Assembly (NCBI RefSeq): GCF_020515625.1 | Contig: NZ_JAIWPJ010000008.1 | Location: forward strand, 1 to 42,259 | Source of the DNA: Natrinema amylolyticum | GTDB lineage: Archaea > Halobacteriota > Halobacteria > Halobacteriales > Natrialbaceae | DNA length: 42,259 bases | Reading direction: 5' to 3' | Shown here: positions 13,072 to 30,663 of the stretch, piece after piece | How the letters are laid out: every line of letters starts with the position of its first letter | Position numbering within the stretch: the first letter of the stretch is position 1 | Notes under the pieces: generated by a model | Database searches by the model: none | What the model was told of the DNA's origin: nothing | What the model saw: the letters and a program-made list of their open reading frames with translations, nothing else | Translations under genes and position numbers: made by a program

Positions 13072-14505
13072 ATGAACTATTCACTCACCCGACAACGGTT
13101 CGCGAACCTACTCGCGACGACGACGATTGCGGCGTACGTTCTCGTCGCACTCGGAACCGCCGTTTCGACGACCGACGGCGCAGCGACCTGTGCGACCTGG
13201 CCGAGCTGTTCGACCGACCTAGCACTCGGTCCGCTCTCCGTCGAATCGCTCCTCTTCTGGGGTCACCGGGTCGCAGCCCTCGTGGCCGGCCTCCTCGTCG
13301 TCGCGTCCGGGCTCGCCACCCGGCAGATCGGGGTCGGTCGCCGGGTGAGGGGCTTGGTCGGGTGTGCGGTCATCCTCTTTCCCGTCCAGGTCGCCCTCGG
13401 TGCTGTGCTCGTCGTCGGCGGCCCCGCCGCTGCGAACGGACTACACCTCGCGCTCGCGATGATCATCTTCGCCTGCCTGCTCGTCGCACTCGTCTGCGTC
13501 CTCGAGGACAGCGCGCGCGAGAGAACGGATACCGCCCGCGAAACCGGTTTCGGTCCGGGAACGAACGAAGCTATCGACTCCGGAGGCACGACGAGCGCCC
13601 GCGAGCGACCGAGCAATCCGCTCGTCCGCCTCCGGCAGACGGTCGGGGCGTACCTGACGCTCACCAAACCGCGGCTGATGTGGTTGCTCTGTCTCGTCGC
13701 AGTCGCGGGAATGGGGCTGGCGACGCTGACAGGTGAGACGCTCGAGTTGACGACCGTGGTCGCGACACTCGTCGGGGGTGTCCTCGCGATCGGTGCGAGC
13801 GCCACGTTCAATCACGTCTACGAACGCGACCGTGACCGGCGGATGAATCGCACGGCAGACCGGCCGCTGGTCCACGATCTCGTTCCGGTACGGAGCGCCC
13901 TATCGTTCGGGATCGTGCTCGTATTCGCGTCGATGGCGATCCTCCTGACATGGGTAAACGTGCTGGCAGCGGCGCTGACCGGCGCTGCAATCGTCTACTA
14001 CGCCATCCTCTATACAGTGGTTCTCAAACCGAACACTGCCTGGAACACGGTTCTCGGCGGTGGGGCGGGAGCACTCCCAGCCGTCATCGGCTGGGCGGCC
14101 GTCACCGGCGACATCGGAGCGCCCGCCATCGCCCTCGCTGCAGTGATCTTCCTGTGGACGCCCGCACACTTCTATAACCTCGCGATCGCCTACCGAGACG
14201 ACTACTCCCGTGGCGGCTTCCCGATGTTCCCCGTCGTCAACGGAGTGCTCGCCGCGCGCCGACACGTCGCGTTCTACCTGGGCGCGACGCTGCTGGCCGC
14301 GAGTGTCCTCGGCTGGCTGGCCGGCCTCGGTATAGTCTACGCGGCCACATCCGTCGCCCTCGGCGCGGTCTTCCTCCGGTCAGTGATTCGGCAGTACCGT
14401 ATTCAGACCGATGAGGCCGCGCTGCAGTCGTTCTATGCCTCGAACTATTATCTCGGTTTCGTTCTTTTCGCAATCATCTTCGAGACGGTCATAGTCGCCA
14501 CGTAA
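13072..14505 (+). CDS. ctaB: CtaA-like domain - CtaB (heme O synthase) fusion
   Basis: 477 residues. Residues ~1-155 form four membrane helices resembling half of heme A synthase CtaA: a cysteine pair in CATWPSC (C40, C46), a heme-ligand type His in GHRVAAL (H65) and another in NGLHLALAM. The rest is a UbiA-family prenyltransferase with the diphosphate motif NHVYERDRDRRMNRTADRP, characteristic of protoheme IX farnesyltransferase. It makes heme O, and perhaps heme A with another protein, for heme-copper enzymes, which fits the reductase genes 3 kb downstream. The fusion is a known haloarchaeal arrangement. Confidence 0.93.
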   Translation: MNYSLTRQRFANLLATTTIAAYVLVALGTAVSTTDGAATCATWPSCSTDLALGPLSVESLLFWGHRVAALVAGLLVVASGLATRQIGVGRRVRGLVGCAVILFPVQVALGAVLVVGGPAAANGLHLALAMIIFACLLVALVCVLEDSARERTDTARETGFGPGTNEAIDSGGTTSARERPSNPLVRLRQTVGAYLTLTKPRLMWLLCLVAVAGMGLATLTGETLELTTVVATLVGGVLAIGASATFNHVYERDRDRRMNRTADRPLVHDLVPVRSALSFGIVLVFASMAILLTWVNVLAAALTGAAIVYYAILYTVVLKPNTAWNTVLGGGAGALPAVIGWAAVTGDIGAPAIALAAVIFLWTPAHFYNLAIAYRDDYSRGGFPMFPVVNGVLAARRHVAFYLGATLLAASVLGWLAGLGIVYAATSVALGAVFLRSVIRQYRIQTDEAALQSFYASNYYLGFVLFAIIFETVIVAT

Positions 14506-14565: not shown

Positions 14566-14663
14566 TGCCCCCGGTATGCAGGGAGTTGTCGGAAAGTTTA
14601 CCATCTACCGAGAATCGTCTCTCCGCTTGAATATGGGTCTCCCTCTACTCACAGGTGAGGACA

Positions 14664-15752
14664 ATGACCCAATTCGATCCCGACCGACGACGGTTTCTAC
14701 AGGCAGTGGGTGCAACCGGCGCGATCGCAGTCGCCGGTTGTCTGGAAGGAAACGAATCGTCGGAACCGACCGACGACGACGAATCGGCAGACGGGGAAGG
14801 GCTGCCGGCGGCGAAAGCGGTTGACGTGGATCGGATCGCCCGGGATCCGACGGATATCCCGGATCCAGTCGACTGGAACGAACCGCGCGAACACGACATC
14901 ACGGTCCGGACCGAGCGGGTGACCGCCGAGATCGAGCTGGGGGTCACCTTCGACTACATGACCTTCGAGGGGCAGGTGCCGGGACCGATGGTCCGAGTCC
15001 GGCGCGGCGACCGGGTGAACCTTACCTTCGACGTCCCGGAGGATCTGAACGTGGCCGCCCACAACATGGACTTCCACGCGGTCTACGGCCCCGGCGGCGG
15101 GGCCGACGCGACCACGATCGCGCCCGGCGACGACCCCACCCAGATCAGCTTCACCGCTGACTACGCGGGCGTGTTCATCTACCACTGTGCGATCCCGAAC
15201 ATGGACCAGCACATCAGCAGCGGCATGTTCGGCTCGATCCTCGTCGAACCCGAGGACGGCCTCCCCGAGGTCGATAACGAGTACTACCTCGGCCAGCACG
15301 AGATCTACACCGACGGCGACGTCGGCGAGAAAGGCCACCACGGCTTCGACTTCGACGCCATGCTCGCCGAACAGCCGACCTACGTCGTGTTCAACGGCCA
15401 GGCCTACGGCTTCACCGGAGACGGTGTCGGCCCCATGCAGGCCAATACGGGCGAGACCGCACGGGTCTACTTCGCCAACGGCGGCCCGAACCTCCTGAGC
15501 TCGTGGCACCCCATCGGCAACGTCTGGAGCCGCTTCTACCGCGACGGCGACCTCCTGACCGAGCCCGAACAGAACATCGAAACCGCACCCGTCGCACCCG
15601 GGACGACGGCCGCGGCCGAAATGGAGTTCCCGGTGCCAGGGCCGGTCAAAATCGTCGACCACGCGCTGACCCGCGCGGCCCGCCGCGGCGCCCTCGGCGT
15701 CATCGACGTCAGCGGCGAGCCCACCCGAGACATCTACGACGAAGACCCGTGA
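14664..15752 (+). CDS. nirK: Copper-containing nitrite reductase
   Basis: 362 residues with a twin-arginine signal (DRRRFLQAVGATG) and lipobox AGC (Cys26), so exported folded and probably lipid-anchored. It has two cupredoxin domains. Type 1 copper ligands: H133, C175, H183, M188 (AHNMDFH, YHCAIPNMDQHISSGM). Type 2 ligands: H138, H174, H333. The catalytic pair is D136 and H282. This is the full set for NirK, which reduces nitrite to NO. The ATG at 14664 has GGTGAGG just upstream; an upstream GTG at 14655 adds three residues. It is next to a thiol-redox pair and a putative NO reductase, which fits denitrification. Confidence 0.93.
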   Translation: MTQFDPDRRRFLQAVGATGAIAVAGCLEGNESSEPTDDDESADGEGLPAAKAVDVDRIARDPTDIPDPVDWNEPREHDITVRTERVTAEIELGVTFDYMTFEGQVPGPMVRVRRGDRVNLTFDVPEDLNVAAHNMDFHAVYGPGGGADATTIAPGDDPTQISFTADYAGVFIYHCAIPNMDQHISSGMFGSILVEPEDGLPEVDNEYYLGQHEIYTDGDVGEKGHHGFDFDAMLAEQPTYVVFNGQAYGFTGDGVGPMQANTGETARVYFANGGPNLLSSWHPIGNVWSRFYRDGDLLTEPEQNIETAPVAPGTTAAAEMEFPVPGPVKIVDHALTRAARRGALGVIDVSGEPTRDIYDEDP

Positions 15753-15848: not shown

Positions 15849-16385
15849 GTGAAGCGTCGTGATCTCCTCACTGGCGCGGTCGGCCTTACCGTCGCCGGGG
15901 GCGGCGCAGCCGTCGCAGTCGGTGACCTCGATATCGATGGCGACGACGCGGGGATCAACCCGGTCGTACTCGAGACGATCGATGCGCCGGGAAGCGAGGC
16001 GGGGACGACGACGGTCCCCCAACGTGGTCGCGTCACGTTCGTCGAACTGTTCGCCACTTGGTGCACCGTCTGCCAGCACACGATGGAGCCGCTCTCGGTC
16101 GTCCACCACGATGTCGGGGAGGACGTCCAGTTCGTGTCCGTGACGAGCGAACCGGTCGGAAACACCGTTACCCGCGACGACGTGGCAGCGTGGTGGACGG
16201 CCAACGGCGGCGACTGGACTGTGGCGCTGGACACCGACCTCGAGCTGACCGAACAGCTCGACGCCGGAGGCGTCCCATACGCGTTCGTGCTCGACGAATC
16301 GAACACCGTTACCTGGTCCGAACGCGGGTACAAGTCCGCCGATGCGTTTCAACGACCGATCGAAGCCGCGCTCACGGACGAGTGA
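15849..16385 (+). CDS. TlpA/ResA-like thioredoxin-fold protein
   Basis: 178 residues with an N-terminal export signal (MKRRDLLTGAVGLTVAGGG; RR pair, twin-arginine type). The thioredoxin active site is FATWCTVCQ (C72, C75) with cis-Pro region GGVPYAFVLDE, the layout of extracytoplasmic TlpA/ResA/Sco-like reductases. It should keep cysteines of exported metalloproteins reduced, here plausibly the CuA site of the neighbouring subunit II or NirK, receiving electrons from the adjacent CcdA-like protein. The start is a GTG. The frame continues through its TGA into the ccdA-like frame. Confidence 0.85.
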   Translation: MKRRDLLTGAVGLTVAGGGAAVAVGDLDIDGDDAGINPVVLETIDAPGSEAGTTTVPQRGRVTFVELFATWCTVCQHTMEPLSVVHHDVGEDVQFVSVTSEPVGNTVTRDDVAAWWTANGGDWTVALDTDLELTEQLDAGGVPYAFVLDESNTVTWSERGYKSADAFQRPIEAALTDE

Positions 16386-16386
16386 G

Positions 16387-17039
16387 ATGGCCGGTGTGAA
16401 CCGGTCGGAACCGTACTGTTCGCCCTCGGCGCGGGCACTGCTACGTTTTTCGCTCCTTGTTCGTATGCCCTGCTACCCGTCTACGTCGGCTACTACGTGG
16501 CGGCGACGGACGAGGAGGGCGCCCCGCTCTCCGGCGCCGTGAGCCGCGGACTCGCGGCTGCGGTCGGTTCGATAGCCGTTCTCATCGCTCTCTCGGCCGT
16601 CGCCCTCGTCGCCGGCATCGCTCTCGAGTCTCTGCTGCCGTTTCTCGAGTACGCCGTCGGTATCGCGTTGATTGCCCTCGAGGTGTGGGTGATTTGGGGC
16701 GGGACGGGCGCCGTCCACGTCCTCCTGCCGGAACGACGAGCGACCGTGACCGGATCCGCGGCTTTCGGTGCGATGTACGCTCTCGCGGCCGTTGCCTGTG
16801 TGGTACCGCTGTTTCTGTCGCTCGCGTTTCGGTCGATCACGATGTCAGTCGCAGAGACCGCGGCGATCATGGACAGCCACGCGGCCAGGTTCGCCGTCCT
16901 GCTTCTCAGTGTGACCGGTGCGACTGCAGTGGGGCACGACCTCACAGCCGGCCGGTTCACCGCCTACGCCGACCGATTCGTTCGCCTCGCCGGCGTGTCG
17001 CTCGTCCTCGCCGACATCGACCAGCTATACGTCGCCTGA
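16387..17039 (+). CDS. CcdA-like membrane thiol-redox protein, apparently frameshifted near the start
   Basis: The protein frame (16386 onward) reads GTVLFALGAG, then FAPCSYALLPVYVGYYV and continues to 17039, with six or so membrane segments and a second Cys in VACVVPLFLSL: the two-cysteine layout of CcdA, which passes reducing power across the membrane to TlpA-like partners. No ATG, GTG or TTG occurs in this frame before codon 38 (16497). The ATG at 16387, just after the tlpA stop, is in another frame; adding one G in GTGTGAACC would give MAGVEPVGTVLF. So either one base was lost here (gene damaged) or the sequence has an error. Translation from 16497 alone would lose the first membrane helix and its cysteine. 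Confidence 0.75.
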
Positions 17040-17241: not shown

Positions 17242-17391
17242 ATGACTATAGACAACGCGGACGAGTCGGAGCCGGTGATGCAACGGTTGTACGACCGTAT
17301 ATGGTTGCTCGCAGCGGCGGCACTCGTGTTTTTCGCCGTTTCGTACGTCGCGTGGGGATGGGTCGACGTGTTCTCAGTTCCACTGGGGTGA
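17242..17391 (+). CDS. Small single-span subunit of the heme-copper reductase
   Basis: 49 residues: an acidic N-terminus (MTIDNADESEPVM), then one membrane span (IWLLAAAALVFFAVSYVAWGW) and a short tail. A one-helix subunit of this kind precedes subunit II in ba3-type (B-family) oxidase operons. It is followed by subunit II after four bases, so they are surely co-transcribed. GAAGG precedes the ATG. Confidence 0.75.
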   Translation: MTIDNADESEPVMQRLYDRIWLLAAAALVFFAVSYVAWGWVDVFSVPLG

Positions 17392-17395
17392 TTCC

Positions 17396-17938
17396 ATGAC
17401 GTCACCGATCAAACCCCCGGACGGTAACTGGTGGGATCAACCGGTCAACAGACGCGAATCCATCTGGCTGGGACTGGGTGTCGGCTGGTCGCTCATTCTC
17501 TTCGGCTGGATGAGCGTCTGGACGCGCGTCGGCGATCAGAACCCCATCGGCGAGACGTTCAGCGTAGAGGCCGAGGAGTTCCGCGAGAAGCTGCAGGACT
17601 ACAAGGAGCGTGCCGAGGAGACAGACGCGGGTCTCGTCCCGCCGGAGCAGGACGTCTACCTGCAGGCGATGCGATTCCAGTGGGATGGCGCGCCAGTTGT
17701 CCTCGAGACGGGGACGGAGTACGACTTCCATCTCAACTCGATGGACGTCCAGCACGGCTTCTCGCTGCGGCCCGAGGACGCGCTGAGCAAACAGATCAAC
17801 CTGCAGGTGCTGCCCGGCTACGAGTGGGTGGTGCCGATGACCTTCGACGAACCCGGCACCTACCACATCATCTGTAACGAGTTCTGTGGCCAGGGCCACC
17901 GGACCATGCACGGGACGATCGTCGTGGAGGAGGGATAA
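17396..17938 (+). CDS. Heme-copper reductase subunit II with CuA site
   Basis: 180 residues: one N-terminal membrane anchor (~24-42) and a C-terminal cupredoxin domain outside the membrane. The binuclear CuA ligands are all present: H120 in MDVQHGFSL, C160 and C164 in CNEFCGQGH, H168 and M171. It accepts electrons from a halocyanin-like or other carrier and passes them to subunit I. The single anchor and the order subunit II before I are as in ba3-type enzymes. The next gene starts two bases after the stop. Confidence 0.93.
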   Translation: MTSPIKPPDGNWWDQPVNRRESIWLGLGVGWSLILFGWMSVWTRVGDQNPIGETFSVEAEEFREKLQDYKERAEETDAGLVPPEQDVYLQAMRFQWDGAPVVLETGTEYDFHLNSMDVQHGFSLRPEDALSKQINLQVLPGYEWVVPMTFDEPGTYHIICNEFCGQGHRTMHGTIVVEEG

Positions 17939-17940
17939 CG

Positions 17941-19686
17941 ATGGCACACAAACTGGACGTTCTCGGCCTGTTCGACAACGAGTATCGCGACGACGGCTTC
18001 CGGACCTGCTCCGTGACGGGGCTCGAGGTTCACCGCTCCGTCGACAACCACGTCAAGCTGTTCGGTCTCACGGCGGTCGTTGCCCTCCTCTACGGAGGCA
18101 TCTTCGCGTTTACCGTCGCGATGACCCGCTGGGAAGTGATCGGGTTACTCGATGCCGCGGACTTCTATACGCATCTCAGCCTGCACGCGTGGAACCTGCT
18201 GATCTTCTGGATGGTGTTCATGGAGATCGCCATCCTCTACGTGGGCGGGCCGATGGTACTGGGCAGACGGCTACCGTTCACGAAGGTCGCGAAGGCGGGA
18301 TGGCTCGTCATGGCCGCCGGGGCGGTGCTCGTCAACTACGCCATCTGGACCACCGAAGCGCCGAACGAGGCGCCGCTGTTGACGGCCTACGTCCCGATGC
18401 CGATTTCGCCGCTGTTCTACGCCGGCGCGATCGTCTTCATTCTGGGCACCGTCGTCGCGGCACTGCCCTTTTTCGCGACGATGTGGTACGAGAAGCGCGA
18501 GCACCCGGACAAGACGCTGCCGCTCGTCAGCTTCGCCGCGTTCGTCACGTCGATCATCGCCGTCGAGGCGCTGGTCGGCGGGCTGGTGGCGTTCGTTCCC
18601 ACCCTGCTGTGGCGACTCGAGATGATCCAGTGGTGGGACGCGGCCTGGTACCGCCAGATGTACTGGATCATCGGGCACGGAACACAGCAGATCAACCTCG
18701 TGGCGATGATCGCCGTCTGGTACTTCCTCACCCACGTCGTCGCCGGCGCGGAGGTCGTCAGCGAGAAGGTCTCGCGGACGGCGTTTATCCTCTACCTGTT
18801 CTTCATCAACCTCGGGGCGGCACACCACTTGCTGTCCGACCCCGCGGTGTCGACCGGCTGGCGCATCTGGAACACGTCCTACGCGTTCTACGGCGCGACG
18901 TTCGCGAGTCTGATCCACGCGTTCGCCATCCCGGCGGGGATCGAGGCCGGCCGCCGAAAGCGCGGGAAGGGCGGCGGGTTGTTCGGCTGGCTCACGTCCG
19001 CTCCCTGGTCGAACCCGGTGTTCTCCTCGACGATCTTCTCGATCATTCTGTTCGGGTTCCTCGGCGGAATCACTGGGGTCATGATGGGACAACTTCAGCT
19101 CAACATGACTTGGCACAACACGTTCGCGACGGTGGGTCACTTCCACGGGACGGTCGTCCTCGGAACGACTGTCGCGTTCATGGGCCTGGTCTTCTTCGTG
19201 ATTCGGACCATGTTCATGCGACAGTACATCTCCGAGCGGCTCGCGTCGATCCAGCCGTTCTTCTACTCGGCCGCGATGGGCGTGGCCGTCCTGATGATGA
19301 TGTACGTCGGTATTCTCTACGGCATCCCGCGACGGACCGCCGAGGTCGTCGAGAACATCCCCGGCACCGAGTTCAGTCTCTCCGCCGCGTCGCCGCTGTT
19401 CGCGATCTTCGGGATCTTCGCCCTACTCGCCATCGCGGGCGGGGTCCTGTTCGTTCTCGTCGCGGTCGGTTCGCTCGTCTTCGGCGACCGGGTCGAAAAC
19501 GGCGCGGACAACGCGGATCTCGTCGCCGACGGGGGGCTGGGGATGGCCCAGGATCCGGACGACCCCGTCCACGCCTACGAGATGCGCGGCACGTTCGTCC
19601 TCTGTCTGGTCTTCCTCGCCGCGTTCGTGATCACCTACCTGCTGAACTGGTATCTGCTCACCCAGCTCTGGTCGATCGGCGCCTGA
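17941..19686 (+). CDS. Heme-copper reductase catalytic subunit I; probable nitric oxide reductase
   Basis: 581 residues, about 13-14 membrane helices. Heme and copper ligands visible: H82 (HLSLHAW), the first CuB/FeB-type His H246, H295-H296 (AAHHLLSDP), and H400/H402 (VGHFHGTVV). In oxygen reductases of the A and B families the His in helix VI is followed four residues later by a cross-linked Tyr (HPEVY); here the motif is GHGTQQ, with Gln250 in that place. Lack of this Tyr is characteristic of NO-reducing members of the superfamily, and families with a CuA subunit are known among them. With nirK in the same island, NO reduction to N2O is my preferred role. A cbb3-like rescue by a Tyr from another helix is the alternative. 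Confidence 0.9.
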   Translation: MAHKLDVLGLFDNEYRDDGFRTCSVTGLEVHRSVDNHVKLFGLTAVVALLYGGIFAFTVAMTRWEVIGLLDAADFYTHLSLHAWNLLIFWMVFMEIAILYVGGPMVLGRRLPFTKVAKAGWLVMAAGAVLVNYAIWTTEAPNEAPLLTAYVPMPISPLFYAGAIVFILGTVVAALPFFATMWYEKREHPDKTLPLVSFAAFVTSIIAVEALVGGLVAFVPTLLWRLEMIQWWDAAWYRQMYWIIGHGTQQINLVAMIAVWYFLTHVVAGAEVVSEKVSRTAFILYLFFINLGAAHHLLSDPAVSTGWRIWNTSYAFYGATFASLIHAFAIPAGIEAGRRKRGKGGGLFGWLTSAPWSNPVFSSTIFSIILFGFLGGITGVMMGQLQLNMTWHNTFATVGHFHGTVVLGTTVAFMGLVFFVIRTMFMRQYISERLASIQPFFYSAAMGVAVLMMMYVGILYGIPRRTAEVVENIPGTEFSLSAASPLFAIFGIFALLAIAGGVLFVLVAVGSLVFGDRVENGADNADLVADGGLGMAQDPDDPVHAYEMRGTFVLCLVFLAAFVITYLLNWYLLTQLWSIGA

Positions 19687-19714: not shown

Positions 19715-20458
19715 ATGACGCCACACTCCGACGACGCGACCGCATCGCCGCTCGAGTCCGTCACGCGGGCCATCGCCCGGGCCTGGCGTGACCTGTTGAG
19801 TGTCTACTACGCGAATACGCCCATCTGGCGACTGTTCAAGAGCGTCGGACTGCTCTTTTTCGGCTTCTTCTGCTGGACGGCCTCGAGCCTCGTACTCTCC
19901 TACGGCATCGAGTGGACCATCCTTGAGTATACGAGGGCCTACGGATTCGTCCTCATCCTCTGGGGGCCGCTTACCCACGCCGTGATCGTCCCGCTCGTAA
20001 TTCGGCTTCGCCGGACTGCCGACCGACCGCTCGTCCGAGCGATCGCTCGGAACGGGTCGAAGATCAACCTCTCTATATTCCTGGCTATCGTCCTGATACT
20101 CGGAACGGCACCCGTCTCGCCGATGCTGCTCGACTTTCAGTCGCCGCTCCAGAGCGATTCGGGTTCGGACGTCAACCCCGACCTCTCGTGTACCCGCGCG
20201 GACGGGGAAATTTCCTGTACGCTCTCCGAGACGGAGGGGATCGACAGCGTCGTCGTGACCAGCGGCGAAAGTCAGATCGCGCGCGTCGAGGACCCGCCGT
20301 ACGACGTCACGTTCCGGGAAGACGACCTCGAGTCAGTGGTCGGGCAGAAGGAGTTCGTCGTCGAACTCCGCGACGAAGACGACGAGACCCTGCGGCGATA
20401 CCGTCGGTCCGTCTCGTCGGTTCCGAACGCGTCGCTCGAGCCGTCGTCGGGAGCCTGA
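19715..20458 (+). CDS. Unrecognised membrane protein next to the reductase
   Basis: 247 residues that I cannot assign to a family. After a hydrophilic start there are three predicted membrane spans: GLLFFGFFCWTASSLVLSYG, YGFVLILWGPLTHAVIVPLV and INLSIFLAIVLILGTAPVS. The C-terminal ~100 residues form an acidic beta-rich domain outside the membrane, with a cysteine pair (LSCTRADGEISCTL) and an Ig-like look. It starts 28 bases after subunit I in the same direction, so it is probably an extra subunit or assembly factor. Confidence 0.75.
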   Translation: MTPHSDDATASPLESVTRAIARAWRDLLSVYYANTPIWRLFKSVGLLFFGFFCWTASSLVLSYGIEWTILEYTRAYGFVLILWGPLTHAVIVPLVIRLRRTADRPLVRAIARNGSKINLSIFLAIVLILGTAPVSPMLLDFQSPLQSDSGSDVNPDLSCTRADGEISCTLSETEGIDSVVVTSGESQIARVEDPPYDVTFREDDLESVVGQKEFVVELRDEDDETLRRYRRSVSSVPNASLEPSSGA

Positions 20459-20777: not shown

Positions 20778-23270
20778 CTAGTCGTCCAGCACCGGCCGCG
20801 AGGAGTTGCCGACGACGATGGCGCTGCTCGTCGCCATCGCGACGGCCGCGAAGAGCGGGTTGATCAGTCCGGCGACGGCCAGTGGGATCGCGACGGCGTT
20901 GTACAGCAGCGCCCAACAGACGTTCTCGCGGATGCGCCGCCGGGTTCCGGTCGCGAGATCGAACACGGATCGAACGGACCGGAGGTCGCTCGAGGTGACG
21001 ACCGCGTCGGCGGCGTCGGTCGCGCGGGCCGTCCCGTTTCCGAGGGCGATCCCGACGTCCGCCGCGGCCAGCGCCGGGGCGTCGTTCGTGCCGTCGCCGA
21101 CCATCGCCGTCACCCCCTCGCGGGAGAGCTGTCGGACCGTTTCGACCTTTCCGTCCGGCGGGACACCGGCGAAGACCCGGTCGACTGCGGGATGGTCGCG
21201 AACCGTCGCCGTCGCGGCTTCGTCGTCGCCCGTTAGAACGATCACCTCGCGGTCGGCGAACGACTCGAGGACCGATTGCCACTCCGACCGCGTTCTGTCG
21301 CCGACGACGGCGACGGCCCTCGCCCGGCCGCCGTAGCCGATGACTGTCGGTAACCGTCCATGCGCTCGCGCGTCATCGATCGCCGTCTCGAGGTCGTCCG
21401 GAACCGGACCGACCAACCGCTCGACGAGCGCGGGCGTCCCGACGGCGACCCGATCGCCCGCTCGTCGCTCGTCGCCGGTCTCGAGGGCAGCGGAGTCCGC
21501 CGTCGTTTCCTCGACCGTCGCACTGACGCCCTCACCGGGATGCCGTTCGAAGTCGGTCACCGCGAACGATCGCTCGTCGTCTCCGGCGGCTTCGGGTTCG
21601 AGGGAGCCGCCGTCGAACGCGACACGCTCGTCGGCCCCACCGTCGTGGTCCCGCTCTGCCGGCCCGGCGCTCGCCGCGGCCACGATGGCCTCGGCGACGG
21701 GATGCTCCGAGCGGCGCTCGACGGCCGCGGCGAGGTCGATCGCATTGATGTCGCCGTGTACTTCGAGCACCGTCATTTCACCGGCTGTCAGCGTGCCAGT
21801 TTTGTCGAAGACGATCGTCTCGACGGCCGATGCCGACTCGAACAGTGTCGCGTTCGCGACGACGATCCCGTGCTCGAGGGCGTCGCGGAGGCCAGATGCG
21901 ACCGCCAGTGGCGTCGCCAGCCCCATCGCACAGGGACAGGAAACGACGAGCACTGTCAACCCCGTGAGCACCGCGTCTGCGATCGGCGTTCCCGTCGCGA
22001 GGCGCCAGCCCGTCGCGACGACCGCCAGTGTCAGTACAAACGGAACGAAGATCGTCGCGAGCTTGTCCGCCAGCCGCTGGACGCCCGGCGTCGAACTCTG
22101 GATCTCCCACATGAGCGACGCGATGTGATCGAGCGTACTCTCCGCGTCCTCGCCGACCTCGACGACCAGCGCACTGTCGGTCGCGATCGCGCCGCCCACG
22201 ACGCGATCACCCGGTCGCTTCGTGACCGGCAACGATTCGCCGGTAAGGACGGACTCGTCGACGGCTGCCGTTCCCTCGAGTACTCGCCCGTCGACGGGGA
22301 TCCGCTCGCCGGGTCTGACGAGCACCTCCTCGCCTCCCGCGAGCCGCTCGACCGGAACCGTCTCGGTCCCGCCGTCGATTCGACGGGTCGCAGTGCGAAC
22401 CCGTGCGGCGGTGATGTCCGCGAGCAGGTCGGTCGCCCGCCGCTTGATCCGGCGTTCGTAGTAGGTTCCGAGCGTGACGACCAGGATGACGGCGACGGTC
22501 ACGTCGTAGTAGAGGTGCGTGCGTCCCATCACCAGCGCGACCGTACTATAGGCGTACGCCGCGACCGCGGCGATCGCGATCAGCAGATCCATGTTCGGCT
22601 GCCCGACCCGCAGGCTGACGTACGCGCCTCGTAAGACCGGATAGCCGGTGTAGAACAGCACGCCGCCCGTCAACAGGCCGATCACGGCGAGTGGAAGGTA
22701 AATCCCGACGGATGTGGTTGCATCCACCGAAAGGATTCCCGTCTCGATCCCGACGTAGCTCGGATAGAGGTAGAACAGGTACCACGGCATGACGAGCATC
22801 GCCAGAAACCCGCCGACGAGCAGCCGCGGGACGAGGTCCTCGTCGGTTCGCGTGCCGTCCCCCTCGCCGTCGCGAAACCGCGCCTCGTAGCCGTATCCCG
22901 AGAGCGTTTCGGGGAGTTCGTCCTCGTCCAGCCGGTCGGGGTCGTAGACGACCCGGGCAGTGTCGGTCGCGTAGCTCGCCTCGACGATCAGAATCCCCGC
23001 CTCGCGCTCGCCCAGCAGCGCGACGAACCCCTCGCAGGTCGAGCAGTGCATCCCGTCGACCGCGAGGAACGCCTCCGCAGCGTCGTCCGGAATTTCCCGC
23101 TCGACGGTCCCGGCTGTCCGGTCGACGACGCTCTCGCGATCGATGTCGTCGACCGTCTCGAGCGTTGCGCTCACCTCCAGACAGCCGCGACAGCAGAACC
23201 GTCCCTCGACGTCCGCCGCGGTCACCGGTGACTCTGGCGTCGGAAGGCCACAGAGTGAGCACGAATCCAT
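20778..23270 (-). CDS. Copper-transporting P1B-type ATPase with N-terminal TRASH-like domain
   Basis: 830 residues. The N-terminus has a cysteine-rich metal-binding segment ([10 protein letters not shown]...GRFCCRGC), then an HMA domain with GMHCSTC (C76, C79), membrane helices, TGES (343-346), the transport motif CPC (445-447), DKTGT with phosphorylated D489, HP in RSEHPVAEA and [15 protein letters not shown] and the CxxC HMA domain indicate Cu(I) transport. The form with N-terminal cysteines resembles FixI/CtpA-type pumps that export copper for assembly of heme-copper enzymes, and its place beside the CuA enzyme and nirK supports delivery rather than detoxification. It faces the reductase operon convergently. 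Confidence 0.93.
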
Positions 23271-25081: not shown

Positions 25082-25308
25082 TTACTGTACCGCCGACTCC
25101 AACGAGCTGGGAACCGTCGTCGAACGGAGTCGGATACTACGGCCGACATAGGGATCGTTACGACGTCGGATTCCGGATCTCTAGTGTGGTGTTATCATGA
25201 CGGAAAAACTCCGACGCGAACATCTTCCCCGTACCTCTCACGAACTCGAAACGTTGCTGCCCGGTTATAGGTGTCGGGTCTGGAGATTCAATTGGAGAGG
25301 TGCCCAGC

Positions 25309-27144
25309 ATGTCACAATCCGAGTCAGCGGCCGAGTCGACGGCGGACCACGAGGAACGAATCAAGCGCCACTTGAGCGCTTCGAGGGAGATCGCGAAGAA
25401 CCTGGAGTTCGACGACGAACTGCACTTCGAGATGGGGTTGCCGATCCCGGGCCGTCGGACGTTCCTGAAGACGAGCGGCATCGTGGCGGCGTCGGCGGCG
25501 CTCGCGGGCTGCACCGACGACGAAACCGACGAGACGGGTAATCAGACTGCCGACGAGGGGGAGTCATCGGGAGAGGAGCCGGCGGAGGTGGAACGAAGTG
25601 AGACCGTTCAGCTGGCGGCCCACCAGTACGAGTTCCAGCCCCAGGAGATCCGGGTGCCGCCGAACACGGAACTCACGATCGAGTTCACGAAATCGACCTT
25701 CGAACAGAACCCGGACTTCAAGTACCACACGTTCTACCTCGAGGAGCCGTACGATATCGGGCCGGTCAATCTCCCAGAGAACACGGACGACGAAGCGTTC
25801 GATTCAGTCACGTTCGTCACTGACGAGGAGGGGACCTTCGACTTCGAGTGTAACGTCTACTGCGGGGACGGACACGCTCAGATGAACGGCCAGCTGTATG
25901 TCGTTCCCGAGGGCGAGTCCGTCGACAAGGTTGACTTCACCGACATGGAGACGCTGAAAGAGCGTCACGAGGTTCTCAAAGAAGAAAGCGAACTGGCAGG
26001 AGAGCCCCAGCACGACCTCGACCTGCGAGACATCATGGTCGTCACCGAGCGCAACAACGCTTCGGTGGCGATGATCGACACGGTCAACGACGAGTTCATG
26101 GAGCGCGTCGAGAACGTGGGGAAGGCGATCCACGTTCACGACTTCCATCCCGACCTCCCCGAGCAGACGCGCGAGGGTGCGTACGTGTACACGCAGTCGC
26201 GACAGGGGGAGATGTACAAGATCGATCTGTTCGACTTCGAACGGGTCGCCGTCGCCGACGCCGGGACGGACGCCAGGGACATCGCCGTCTCCCGGGACGG
26301 CAACTACGTGATCGGCGGGTTCTACAACCCGAACCACCTGGTCATCTGTGACGCGGACACGATGGAGCCGATCAAGCGGATCCCGACCCACACCGTCAAC
26401 CCCGACGGCGAGAGCCTCGGGAGCCGCGTCTGCTCGCTGTACGACGTCCCACAGGAGGGGCTCTTCCTCGCGGGGCTCAAGGAAGGCGGTGAGGTGTGGC
26501 TCATCGACTACACGCAGGACGAGTTCCCGGTCGTGGCGACCATCGAATGCGGTCGAACCCTCCACGACGGGTTCTTCACGGAGGACGGTCGCTACTTCAT
26601 GATCGCCTCCCAGACGGATAACCAGATGGACATCATCGACACGCGAGAACGAAGCCACGTCGCCGCGATCCCGATGGACGGTGTGCCACATCCCGGCCCC
26701 GGCGCGCTGTACCCCGACGAGGACCTCGCCTTTACCACCCACGCGGGTGCGCCGAGCGTCGGCGTCTGGAACACGGAGACCTGGGAGGCCGAGGAGATGA
26801 TCGACGTCAGGGGATCGGGGCTGTTCATCCGGAAACACGAGAACAGCGACTACGTCTGGGCCGACGTCATCCTCACCGACAGCGAGGACGACGCCTACGT
26901 CTACACGATCGACCCCGAGACCCTCGAGGTCGACCAGGAGATCGACTGCAGTCAGTGGGGTGCCGACGCCGCGATCCATCCCGAGTTCAGCCGCGACGGC
27001 GAGAAGGTGTACATCAGCGTCTGGATGGGCGAGAACGAATCGATCCTCGTGTTCGATCCGAACACGGGCGAGATGCTGACCCAGATCGAGGATCTGCTGG
27101 CGCCGACCGGAAAGTTCCTCGGCGTCCGCGCGGAGGGACACTGA
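25309..27144 (+). CDS. CuA cupredoxin - heme d1 propeller fusion (nitrite reductase NirS-like)
   Basis: 611 residues. Twin-arginine signal after an unusually long 48-residue leader (GRRTFLK, RR 49-50) and lipobox LAGC (Cys68), so exported and lipid-anchored. Residues ~95-200 are a cupredoxin with a complete CuA ligand set: H140, C181, C185, H189, M192 (CNVYCGDGHAQM). Residues ~240-611 match the eight-bladed d1 domain of cytochrome cd1 nitrite reductase: GKAIH (H275, proximal ligand), GRTLHDGFFTEDGRYFM (H419, distal), VPHPGPGA, SGLFIRKH, ISVWMG and the end APTGKF. The second distal His of NirS seems replaced by Ser369. The cytochrome c domain is absent. The ATG at 25309 has GGAGAGG upstream. 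NirN-like d1 handling is the alternative role. Confidence 0.92.
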   Translation: MSQSESAAESTADHEERIKRHLSASREIAKNLEFDDELHFEMGLPIPGRRTFLKTSGIVAASAALAGCTDDETDETGNQTADEGESSGEEPAEVERSETVQLAAHQYEFQPQEIRVPPNTELTIEFTKSTFEQNPDFKYHTFYLEEPYDIGPVNLPENTDDEAFDSVTFVTDEEGTFDFECNVYCGDGHAQMNGQLYVVPEGESVDKVDFTDMETLKERHEVLKEESELAGEPQHDLDLRDIMVVTERNNASVAMIDTVNDEFMERVENVGKAIHVHDFHPDLPEQTREGAYVYTQSRQGEMYKIDLFDFERVAVADAGTDARDIAVSRDGNYVIGGFYNPNHLVICDADTMEPIKRIPTHTVNPDGESLGSRVCSLYDVPQEGLFLAGLKEGGEVWLIDYTQDEFPVVATIECGRTLHDGFFTEDGRYFMIASQTDNQMDIIDTRERSHVAAIPMDGVPHPGPGALYPDEDLAFTTHAGAPSVGVWNTETWEAEEMIDVRGSGLFIRKHENSDYVWADVILTDSEDDAYVYTIDPETLEVDQEIDCSQWGADAAIHPEFSRDGEKVYISVWMGENESILVFDPNTGEMLTQIEDLLAPTGKFLGVRAEGH

Positions 27145-27170
27145 CCGCGGTCGACCGGTCCCACAGGCAC

Positions 27171-28313
27171 ATGTCCGACACCAGCAACACGACCGCGCGA
27201 ACGCGGACGGACCGACGACCGGCGGGACCGCTCGCGCTCGTCAAACACCTCCGCGGCGAGGGACTGACGGCGATCGACGCGGCGACCCACGAGCCGCTCG
27301 AGCGGATCGGCGACGGCCGCCAGCCACACGCGCTGGCCGTCCGTCCCGGCGGTCGCTGGGCGTACGTCCCCTACATGGGGTCGAACGCGCTCGAGATCGT
27401 CGACCTGTGGACGCTGTCCGTCGCGGACCGCGTCGACGAGGTCGGGACCGCGCCCGTGGGAGCGGTCCTGACCCGAACGGGACGGTACCTGTTCGTCAGC
27501 ACGTACGGCGGCCTCCCGGACGACGACCAGCCGGGACTGGCCGTCTTTCGGACGGCCGACGAGCGGGTCGACCGCGTCGCACGACTTCCCGTCGGGAAGG
27601 CCGCCGGCCTCGCCGTCGACGCCGACAACGACGTGTGGGTCGCGCTCCGAGACGACGACGAGTTGCTCCGGATCGGCGGGACGCCCCCCTTCAACGTCCT
27701 GGACCGGTTCGCGGTCGGTGCCGGTCCGCAGGACCTGGCCCACGAACCGACCCGGGGACTGCTGGGCGTGAACAACGCCGACGGGGACAGCGTGACCGTC
27801 GTCGACACGCACGCGGCGACGGTCCTCGGGACGGTCCCGGCCCCGAACCCGAGGGGCGGGACCGCCGTTCCGGGCAGCGATCGCTGGATCGTCGGCGACA
27901 CGGAGGGAGACGGAATCACGGTCGTCGACCTCGAGGCGGTCCGCCGCGGGGATCTCGAGTCGGCGGTCGCCGATCGCGTCCCGCTGGGGACGCCCACTGC
28001 CTTTCCCGACGTCACCCCCGACGGGTCCCTGCTCGCCGTCGATGCCTACGACGACGATCGCGTCGCGTTCCTCGACCCCTCGAGCCTGGGCGTCGTCGCG
28101 CGGGTCGAGACCGGGCCGACGCCGCGCCACCCGCGGTTCAGCGCGGACGGCCGGGTCTGTTACGTCCCCAGCGTCGACGCCGACACCGTGACCGTCGTCG
28201 ACGTCGACGACGTTCGAGCGGGCGACCCCGACCCGATCGCGGCGACCATCGACGTGTCCGAAGGGGCGGCCCCCGCGGGCTGTTTTCGGACCGATAGAGG
28301 TAGATACCAATGA
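27171..28313 (+). CDS. nirF: NirF-like propeller protein, first copy
   Basis: 380 residues made of beta-propeller blades. The segment DGRQPHALAVRPGGRWAYV matches the NirF region (SHASAVFSRDGRYAYV-type) that carries the functionally important His of NirF. NirF acts in the last steps of heme d1 synthesis and binds heme d1. The C-terminus AAPAGCF is a degenerate form of the NirF end motif KPSGIF. No signal peptide is seen, so a cytoplasmic location is likely. It begins 26 bases after the CuA-d1 gene; its TGA overlaps the ATG of the next gene (ATGA). A generic YncE-like propeller is the fallback assignment. Confidence 0.8.
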   Translation: MSDTSNTTARTRTDRRPAGPLALVKHLRGEGLTAIDAATHEPLERIGDGRQPHALAVRPGGRWAYVPYMGSNALEIVDLWTLSVADRVDEVGTAPVGAVLTRTGRYLFVSTYGGLPDDDQPGLAVFRTADERVDRVARLPVGKAAGLAVDADNDVWVALRDDDELLRIGGTPPFNVLDRFAVGAGPQDLAHEPTRGLLGVNNADGDSVTVVDTHAATVLGTVPAPNPRGGTAVPGSDRWIVGDTEGDGITVVDLEAVRRGDLESAVADRVPLGTPTAFPDVTPDGSLLAVDAYDDDRVAFLDPSSLGVVARVETGPTPRHPRFSADGRVCYVPSVDADTVTVVDVDDVRAGDPDPIAATIDVSEGAAPAGCFRTDRGRYQ

Positions 28314-29446
28314 CACCGGACACCGACACCGTCGCGAGCGACCGCTCGTCCGGCGCGCCGACGATCGTCAAGAACGCCGCGAGCAGCCACTTCAGCGCGG
28401 TCGATATCGAGGACGGTGAGGTCCTCAAAGCGGTCGGCGACGGGCGATACCCGCACACGGCGCTGTTTCACCCGGACGCGCCCGTCGCGTACCTGCTGTA
28501 CATCTCCAGTGCGCATCTCGAGGTCCTCGACCTCGAGCGTCTGGAGACCGTCCAGCGCGTCGACCGACTCGGAACGATGCCAGTCGGGAGCGCACTCGGC
28601 CCCGACGGCGACCGGCTGTTCGTCGGCACCGCCGTGGCTCTGCCGGACGCGCCCGATCCGGGCGTCCTCGCGTTCGAGATCGACGCCGACGGCCGGCTCG
28701 AGGCGGGCGGCGCGCGGCCGCTCTCGCGGAGTTCGGGTATGCGAATCGGGCCGGACGGCCGCCTGTACGTGGGCCAGAAGACCGCGGACGAGATCGCCGT
28801 GTGCAGCGCCGATTCCCAGTTGGCCGTCGAGGCGCGGATCCCCGTCGGTGCAGAGCCACACGATCTCTACGTGCTCGAGGACGACGGGCTGTTGGTCGTC
28901 AACCACGCTGGGGGCTCGTCCGCGTCGTTCGTCGATCCGGAAACGGGTCGGGTCCGCTGTACTGCCGAGACGGGGACGAATCCGCACGGCTTCGCCGTCG
29001 CGGACGGCCCCGACTATCGGTACGGGCTGCTCCCGGCGCGCGAGGACGAGCGGGTAGCCGTCGTCGACCTCGAGGCGGTCGCGGCCGGCGAGTCGTCGCC
29101 GACGGAGGCGCTGCTCGACGTCGGAACGACGACCGGCTTCGCCGACGTGACGCCGGACGGCCGCTACGCGATCGTCGACTCCTACGAGGAGCCGTTCGTG
29201 ACGATCCTGGATCTGGGTGACCGCTCGATCGCCGGCCGAGTCGAAGTCGGCGGGGAACCGCTTCACGTCGTCTTCGGACCCGAAGGGGAGGAGTGCTACG
29301 TCGGAAATATGGAGCGAACCGATCTCGCGGTGCTCGACGTACGGCCGCTGGCCGACGATCGGCCAGCGGACGTGTCCGTCGCTCGCCGAATCGAGGGACT
29401 CGGAGACAAACCGAGCGGTATCTTCCGCCCGGAGGGAAGCCAATGA
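28310..29446 (+). CDS. nirF: NirF-like propeller protein, second copy
   Basis: 378 residues, a diverged paralogue of the preceding protein. It has DGRYPHTALFHPDAPVAYL at the NirF histidine region and ends in GLGDKPSGIF, the NirF C-terminal motif almost unchanged. No export signal is visible. Start and stop both overlap the neighbours by ATGA, so three genes are translationally coupled. Two consecutive NirF-like proteins are unusual; they may form a heterodimer or serve different d1 intermediates (inference). Confidence 0.82.
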   Translation: MTPDTDTVASDRSSGAPTIVKNAASSHFSAVDIEDGEVLKAVGDGRYPHTALFHPDAPVAYLLYISSAHLEVLDLERLETVQRVDRLGTMPVGSALGPDGDRLFVGTAVALPDAPDPGVLAFEIDADGRLEAGGARPLSRSSGMRIGPDGRLYVGQKTADEIAVCSADSQLAVEARIPVGAEPHDLYVLEDDGLLVVNHAGGSSASFVDPETGRVRCTAETGTNPHGFAVADGPDYRYGLLPAREDERVAVVDLEAVAAGESSPTEALLDVGTTTGFADVTPDGRYAIVDSYEEPFVTILDLGDRSIAGRVEVGGEPLHVVFGPEGEECYVGNMERTDLAVLDVRPLADDRPADVSVARRIEGLGDKPSGIFRPEGSQ

Positions 29447-30663
29447 TCGACCTGACACGCCTCATCAGAGGACTCGACAATCGACCCGAACAGATCCGTT
29501 ACGAGAAGCGTCACGCGAGCGATGCGCTCGTCCCGCTGGTCGTGTGGAACACGACCCCTGCGTGTAACTTGCAGTGCAAACACTGCTACTTCGGGGCCTG
29601 CGACGAGCGCGACAGCGGGGAACTGTCGACCGCCGAGGCGAAGGCGTTCATCGACTCGCTGGCCGCGGTGAACGTGCCGGTACTCGTCTTCAGCGGCGGC
29701 GAGCCGTTCTTCCGCGACGATCTCACCGAACTCACCCGGTACGCGACCGAGCAGGGGCTCCGTCCCATCGCCTCGAGTAACGGCACGTTCCTGACCGAGG
29801 AGCGCGCTCGGGAAGTAGCCGACGCCGGGATGCAGTACGTCGGCGTCTCGCTGGACGGCGTCGGGGCGACGAACGACGAGTTCCGCGGCGTCGACGGGGC
29901 GTTCGAGCGTGCCCGCAACGGGCTTCGCAACGCTCGCGACGCCGGGATGGGGACCGGGATCCGGTGCACGATGACCGAGGGGACCGTCGACGACGTCCCC
30001 GCGGTGATCGACCTCGCAGTCGAGGAGGGGATCGACCGTGTCAACGTGTTCCACCTCATCTACTCGGGGCGCGGCGGCGACATCACCGACGCCGACCTCC
30101 CCTTCGAGCGCACGCGTGAGGTGGTCGATTACCTCTACGAGCGAACCAAAACGCTCGCCGAGACCCACCCCGACATGCAGATCCTGACCGCGGGTAACTA
30201 CGCGGACGCGGTCTACCTCTACCACCGCATCCGCGAAGACATGCCGGCTCACGCCGAGCGGGCTCGGGAACTCCTGTTCGACGACGGTCCCGGGCGAGTG
30301 GTCAAGAACGGCGACGCCGGCCCGAAGGTCGTCAACGTCGACCACCGCGGCGACGTCCACCCGAGCATGTTCCTCTCACAGTACACGCTCGGGAACGTCC
30401 GAGAGCAACGGCTCGACGAGATCCTCGCCGAAAGCGACCGCTGGGACGAACTGGCCGAACCGACCGAGCATCTCAAAGGGAAATGCGGCCGTTGCCCGTG
30501 GAAGGAGGTCTGTGGCGGGAACTCCCGCGCCCGGGCCGCTGCAGTCTACGACGACCTCTGGGCCGAGGACCCTCGGTGCTATCTCACCGAGGCCGAGTAC
30601 AGTACCGACGACCTGCCGACCGACCACGCACCACCGGTCGACGCGCCCGCAGTGCTCGAATAG
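29443..30663 (+). CDS. nirJ: Radical SAM/SPASM protein, NirJ-like (heme d1 biosynthesis)
   Basis: 406 residues. The radical SAM cluster motif is CNLQCKHC (C41, C45, C48), followed by FSGGEP for SAM binding. The C-terminal SPASM-type cysteines are C348, C351, C357 and C379 in CGRCPWKEVCGGNSRARA...DPRCYL, the ending typical of NirJ and the heme-synthesis enzymes AhbC/AhbD. NirJ removes propionate side chains during heme d1 formation. The neighbours (NirF-like proteins and a d1 enzyme) favour NirJ over AhbC/AhbD, which haloarchaea need elsewhere for ordinary heme. Confidence 0.85.
   Translation: MIDLTRLIRGLDNRPEQIRYEKRHASDALVPLVVWNTTPACNLQCKHCYFGACDERDSGELSTAEAKAFIDSLAAVNVPVLVFSGGEPFFRDDLTELTRYATEQGLRPIASSNGTFLTEERAREVADAGMQYVGVSLDGVGATNDEFRGVDGAFERARNGLRNARDAGMGTGIRCTMTEGTVDDVPAVIDLAVEEGIDRVNVFHLIYSGRGGDITDADLPFERTREVVDYLYERTKTLAETHPDMQILTAGNYADAVYLYHRIREDMPAHAERARELLFDDGPGRVVKNGDAGPKVVNVDHRGDVHPSMFLSQYTLGNVREQRLDEILAESDRWDELAEPTEHLKGKCGRCPWKEVCGGNSRARAAAVYDDLWAEDPRCYLTEAEYSTDDLPTDHAPPVDAPAVLE

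Follow-up and report, generated by a model that had tools for sequence, protein, structure and literature searches.

A probable eNOR-family nitric oxide reductase operon in Natrinema amylolyticum and its haloarchaeal relatives

What does a heme-copper enzyme reduce when its catalytic subunit has glutamine in place of the active-site tyrosine and its genes stand next to a nitrite reductase gene? A contig of the haloarchaeon Natrinema amylolyticum (NZ_JAIWPJ010000008.1) raises this question; the whole stretch analyzed, positions 1 to 42,259, is referred to here as the window. On the forward strand, an open reading frame at 17941-19686 encodes a 581-residue protein that matches Pfam COX1 (E 1.3e-50). 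Within it, positions 18658-18711 (+) translate as MYWIIGHGTQQINLVAMI and hold the helix VI segment GHGTQQIN. From this segment, a sequence-only reading had proposed that the CuB-ligand histidine is present, that the tyrosine is lost, and that the protein is a CuA-type nitric oxide reductase (NOR), probably labeled in error as an oxidase of the ba3 or cbb3 type.

Both residue assignments held when we aligned the protein with the Thermus ba3 oxidase. In a local alignment (E ~1e-30) and in multiple alignments, His246 pairs with the CuB ligand His233, and Gln250 with Tyr237, in the usual ba3 numbering, which we take to be the 4fa7 index minus 6. Glutamine occupies this position in all 113 eNOR-type rows of the multiple alignment (the window protein, 29 haloarchaeal proteins, 80 mostly proteobacterial ones, and three plasmid-borne ones from Thermus, Thermomicrobium and Defluviimonas), and tyrosine occupies it in 7/7 B-family rows (Thermus ba3 and six others). 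Such uniformity rules out sequencing error or chance. Most bacterial rows read QQINV and were retrieved with a helix-II pattern rather than with the pattern QQ[IV]NL[VAL]AM, so the glutamine was not the criterion by which they were selected.

The metal ligands are intact. The window protein keeps all six metal-ligand histidines (82, 246, 295, 296, 400 and 402), and these are invariant over the 113 rows with the exception of one Thermus row. Also invariant are Gln250, its neighbor Gln249, Asn252, Glu95, Tyr285, Tyr314 and His326. At the K-channel positions of ba3, the eNOR rows retain Tyr248 and Ser309 (Tyr261 and Ser323 in the window protein), while Tyr244 is replaced by valine or isoleucine and Thr312 by the invariant His326. 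In C-family (cbb3) oxidases, the active-site tyrosine comes from helix VII and precedes the HH pair by six residues. A replacement tyrosine at that position, which would have spoken for oxygen reduction, is absent: the window protein has Ile289, and leucine or isoleucine is found in 113/113 rows. The NorB-type motif HMWVEG, with the FeB-site glutamate that marks qNOR and cNOR, is that of the genome's own quinol-dependent NORs (qNORs); it was not found in the window protein, and an eNOR query gave no match to the genome's qNOR reading frames.

Two departures from these patterns were seen elsewhere. Three Thermus thermophilus plasmid records (L152 183-1868, L153 383-2065 and L040 7983-9668) have VGHFK for the VGHFH of the other 112 alignment rows, replacing the low-spin heme ligand histidine with lysine. 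On Azospirillum brasilense plasmid p1 (L048), a distant heme-copper-like protein differs at several metal ligands, with HNLHY in helix VI, YH for HH and GYFH for GHFH.

We placed the protein in trees containing proteobacterial, Thermus and Thermomicrobium relatives together with A-family and B-family oxidases. A first tree also included qNOR and the divergent Azospirillum protein; their long branches joined, so the placement of qNOR in it carries no weight, and a second tree omitted these sequences. The glutamine-bearing sequences form a single clade, with support of 99/99 with all outgroups and 100/100 minus four long-branch rows. The window protein lies inside a haloarchaeal clade (100/100) that groups with the glutamine-bearing bacterial proteins, apart from the B-family oxygen reductases. 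The check that the sequence-only reading had called for thus places the protein outside the oxygen-reductase families, in a set that leaves aside bNOR, sNOR, gNOR, nNOR and the characterized Rhodothermus enzyme.

The eNOR family was reportedly described by Hemp and Gennis in 2008 and by Murali et al. in 2024 (doi 10.1073/pnas.2316422121). Its published criterion is glutamine in place of the tyrosine together with a cupredoxin subunit II, and members have been reported from Halobacteria, Natronomonas among them (PMC8756737). A further paper counts eNOR with the NORs that have been characterized biochemically and relates it to B-family oxidases (PMC11388526). Because Gln250, the metal ligands and the clade all fit the published definition, the earlier interpretation holds: the window protein is a member of the known eNOR family and has lost the tyrosine. 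We are confident that the operon is best explained as encoding an eNOR-family nitric oxide reductase. That NO is the substrate is inferred from family membership, from the published characterization of another eNOR and from the association with nirK described below; the papers searched report no activity measurements on an eNOR from haloarchaea.

An AlphaFold2 model of subunit I, of medium confidence and built without cofactors (pLDDT 74, pTM 0.81), supports an oxidase fold. Its best Foldseek matches are ba3 oxidases (TM ~0.75), and VIA-align 2 places it about equally close to A- and B-type oxidases (Z 32-35, rmsd 2.5-3.2 over ~460-490 residues). The model confirms the predicted fold, and not the chemistry. 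NCBIfam has no eNOR model, and subunit I matches only CtaD and QoxB, far under cut-off. The anticipated mis-annotation is borne out by public records, in which the Thermus, Thermomicrobium and Defluviimonas homologues are labeled ‘cbb3-type’ or ‘b(o/a)3-type’ oxidases. Plasmid 4 of T. thermophilus NAR1 (L152) bears an eNOR annotated as a cbb3-type oxidase; this strain has been reported to be without a norCBH operon (PMC7694296).

The genes around subunit I are those of a CuA-type enzyme. Immediately upstream, 17396-17938 (+) encodes a CuA-domain subunit II (Pfam COX2 E 3.6e-5; NCBIfam CoxB E 1.6e-12, below cut-off) with the ligand pattern DVQHGF...CNEFCGQGHRTM, which together with the eNOR clade supports, at the level of sequence, the proposed CuA-type NOR. 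A CuA subunit adjoins eNOR in 20/20 haloarchaeal loci and is matched in 82/83 bacterial loci. Preceding it, 17242-17391 (+) encodes a 49-residue single-helix protein, a putative small subunit in a position like that of ba3 subunit IIa. By tblastn, this protein is matched upstream of CuA in 20/20 haloarchaeal and 62/83 bacterial eNOR loci, and members from both domains share PxMQRxxDNxxLLxxxxxxxxxxYxxWGxxDIxSxP. The 49-residue protein, the CuA subunit and eNOR are the operon core.

Further upstream on the same strand is nirK, as the sequence-only reading had noted (14655-15752; TIGR02376, 364.6 bits against a cut-off of 296.3), encoding the copper nitrite reductase that is a source of NO. The genome has three nirK copies; the other two (C1:1432116-1433207 and C5:125867-126961) are 89% identical to that of the window. 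Some of the 20 haloarchaeal loci were picked for a nearby nirK, which biases its frequency among them. The gene at 13072-14505 (+) encodes CtaB, the heme O synthase (TIGR01473 at 288.8 bits, over the cut-off), whose N-terminal part resembles CtaA/COX15 (COX15-CtaA E 2.4e-7). Since ctaB is conserved near eNOR (13/20 haloarchaeal and 67/83 bacterial loci), its presence suggests heme o or a as the cofactor. Between nirK and the core, a thioredoxin/TlpA-like protein (15849-16385, +; Redoxin E 2.9e-11), possibly a thiol or Cu-site assembly factor, and a membrane protein of the same gene run without Pfam or NCBIfam match (16497-17039, +) recur in subsets of the haloarchaeal loci. On the opposite strand, 20778-23270 (-) encodes a CopA-like heavy-metal/Cu P-type ATPase (TIGR01525 and TIGR01511 above cut-off); with matches at a majority of those 20 loci, it likely serves copper supply or homeostasis. 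Anoxia regulation is unsupported, as the window holds no exact CGAAC-N4-GTTCG site, which we take to be the NarO motif. One-mismatch sites number 15 in the window against 5.5 expected, with none in the eNOR operon, and were given no weight.

Directly 3' of subunit I, 19715-20458 (+) encodes a 247-residue membrane protein that we regard as a candidate haloarchaeal eNOR partner. It stands beside eNOR in 20/20 haloarchaeal loci, each of which also has the 49-residue protein and the CuA subunit, and in 0/83 bacterial loci. It is present in 52/53 haloarchaeal genomes with eNOR, and in the sole genome without a match (G034), eNOR is truncated at a contig end. Only two matches, both partial, occur in genomes without eNOR. 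One of these (genome G280, L149 6096-6858) is an eNOR operon remnant from which subunit I is gone: its 49-residue gene contains a stop, and the first 82 CuA codons are fused into the last part of the 247-residue gene. Members of this protein family contain several hydrophobic segments, and two cysteines of their C-terminal domain are invariant. A profile search of the PDB gave a pilin at best (E 0.009), then E 0.4, and Pfam matches were weak and scattered (Big_7 in 4/18 members; none reliable in Pfam or NCBIfam for the window protein), so we claim no family for it. It is the only part of the conserved core not traced to a described family in the databases and literature covered; strictly linked to eNOR, it is a concrete new gene for testing.

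These components suggest how the enzyme could work. NirK would produce NO outside the membrane, and a blue-copper donor, probably halocyanin, would pass electrons to CuA of subunit II. From there, electrons would move to the low-spin heme (His82/His402) and on to the high-spin heme/CuB center (His400; His246, His295 and His296), where 2 NO would be converted to N2O. Gln250 stands where oxidases have the tyrosine that gives a proton and an electron for O-O cleavage, a step that NO reduction does not need. Protons would probably come from inside by a modified K-type route, with Tyr261 and Ser323 kept, valine or isoleucine at the Tyr244 position and His326 at that of Thr312.

Comparison with known systems brings out what the haloarchaeal enzyme shares and what sets it apart. 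It resembles the bacterial eNORs in the glutamine, the intact heme and CuB histidines, the adjacent CuA subunit and the kinship to the B family; it differs in forming a clade of its own, with the window protein ~38-42% identical to them, and in the additional downstream 247-residue protein. It shares fold, metal ligands, a CuA subunit and the position of a small one-helix subunit with T. thermophilus ba3 and with the genome's own B-family oxidase (L007), but Tyr237, Tyr244 and Thr312 are replaced, the invariant Glu95, Gln249, Asn252 and His326 are specific to eNOR, and the clades are separate. The genome's qNORs (NorZ; L008 and L010) presumably carry out the same reaction, 2 NO to N2O, but they are single-subunit quinol enzymes that lack a CuA subunit, carry the HMWVEG motif and show no close sequence match. 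bNOR is likewise a CuA-type NOR of B-family ancestry (PMC11388526) but is reported only in Bacillota, and it is set apart here by description only.

We then asked how widespread eNOR is in the window's class. Calling eNOR at no less than 62% identity, below which a clean gap extends down to ~30% (B-family), we found it in 53/292 genomes. nirK accompanies it in 50/53, compared with 112/239 of the others (p 1.4e-11). Among the matches listed, the association holds when genomes are stratified by genus (CMH p 8e-8, MH odds ratio 38; 0/200,000 permutations reached the CMH value), and in 21/53 genomes the distance between nirK and eNOR is no more than 15 kb, far above a generous chance estimate (P ~6e-20); genomes of one genus are related, and these p values serve as a guide only.

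At a threshold of E 1e-180, 19 of the 53 eNOR genomes lack qNOR, and 18 of these 19 have nirK. These genomes conflict with a survey of haloarchaeal denitrification in which qNOR is the only NO reductase of the group (PMC8400030). We considered and rejected the idea that eNOR replaces qNOR: both occur in 34/53 genomes, and avoidance is not significant (p 0.17) and weak among nirK genomes (p 0.03). N. amylolyticum itself has seven genes of the heme-copper superfamily: two for qNORs, three for A-family enzymes with GHPEVY, one for a B-family enzyme with GHAVVY and that for eNOR, and hence more than one NOR. Useful additions to a known family are the survey of haloarchaeal genomes, those genomes in which eNOR is the sole recognized NOR, and the linked 247-residue protein. 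Standard annotation names eNORs oxygen-reducing oxidases, by which 19/292 genomes, 18 of them with nirK, would be mis-scored as lacking a NOR, and recognizing eNOR alters what is predicted for the formation of N2O in salt lakes.

Could the complex nonetheless reduce oxygen, as a B-family (ba3-type) reductase that tolerates glutamine or draws the proton and electron from another residue? The closest solved structures are ba3 oxidases, the fold and subunit plan are oxidase-like, and Tyr285 and Tyr314 (invariant) and Tyr317 (near-invariant) are specific to the group. Yet the trees put the window protein outside the B clade, Tyr237, Tyr244 and Thr312 of the K-channel are all altered, eNOR is linked to nirK, and oxidases with the tyrosine intact are already present in the genome (three A-family and one B-family); we consider oxygen reduction highly improbable. 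The notion that subunit I is a decaying, non-functional oxidase copy has in its favor the loss of one active-site residue and the deleted operon remnant in another genome, but the substitution is invariant over 113 sequences that keep the ligands, and the reading frame is unbroken and shares 93-96% identity with its counterparts in the genus, leaving this a negligible prospect.

If the enzyme is an eNOR-family nitric oxide reductase, its physiological role can still be read in two ways. It might mainly detoxify NO when O2 is low, alongside NirK and the qNORs, and not provide a main energy-conserving respiratory step, and the two qNORs of this genome and the reduction of NO by eNOR under microoxic conditions (PMC11388526) are in line with that. 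A CuA-linked, oxidase-like complex with polar residues conserved at proton-path positions suggests energy coupling instead, and eNOR is the sole recognized NOR in 19 genomes, so that a mainly detoxifying role strikes us as rather unlikely. We tentatively propose, as a possibility somewhat short of probable, that the 49-residue, CuA, catalytic and 247-residue proteins of haloarchaea form a lineage-specific eNOR complex of four parts, which conserves energy while reducing NO and is the main or only NOR in about one third of the haloarchaea carrying it.

A separate cluster in the same window may also combine CuA with nitrogen-oxide chemistry. At 25300-30660 (+), a reading frame joins a CuA-type cupredoxin at its N-terminus (CNVYCGDGHAQM) to a propeller of the cytochrome d1 kind (Pfam E 9e-75); two more propeller proteins come after it, then a radical-SAM protein resembling NirJ (best TIGR04347, below cut-offs) and hemA. 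The cluster resembles a heme d1 system of the NirS type in which CuA replaces cytochrome c; haloarchaea have been surveyed as having NirK only (PMC8400030). A 48% homologue is encoded near eNOR in another locus (L140).
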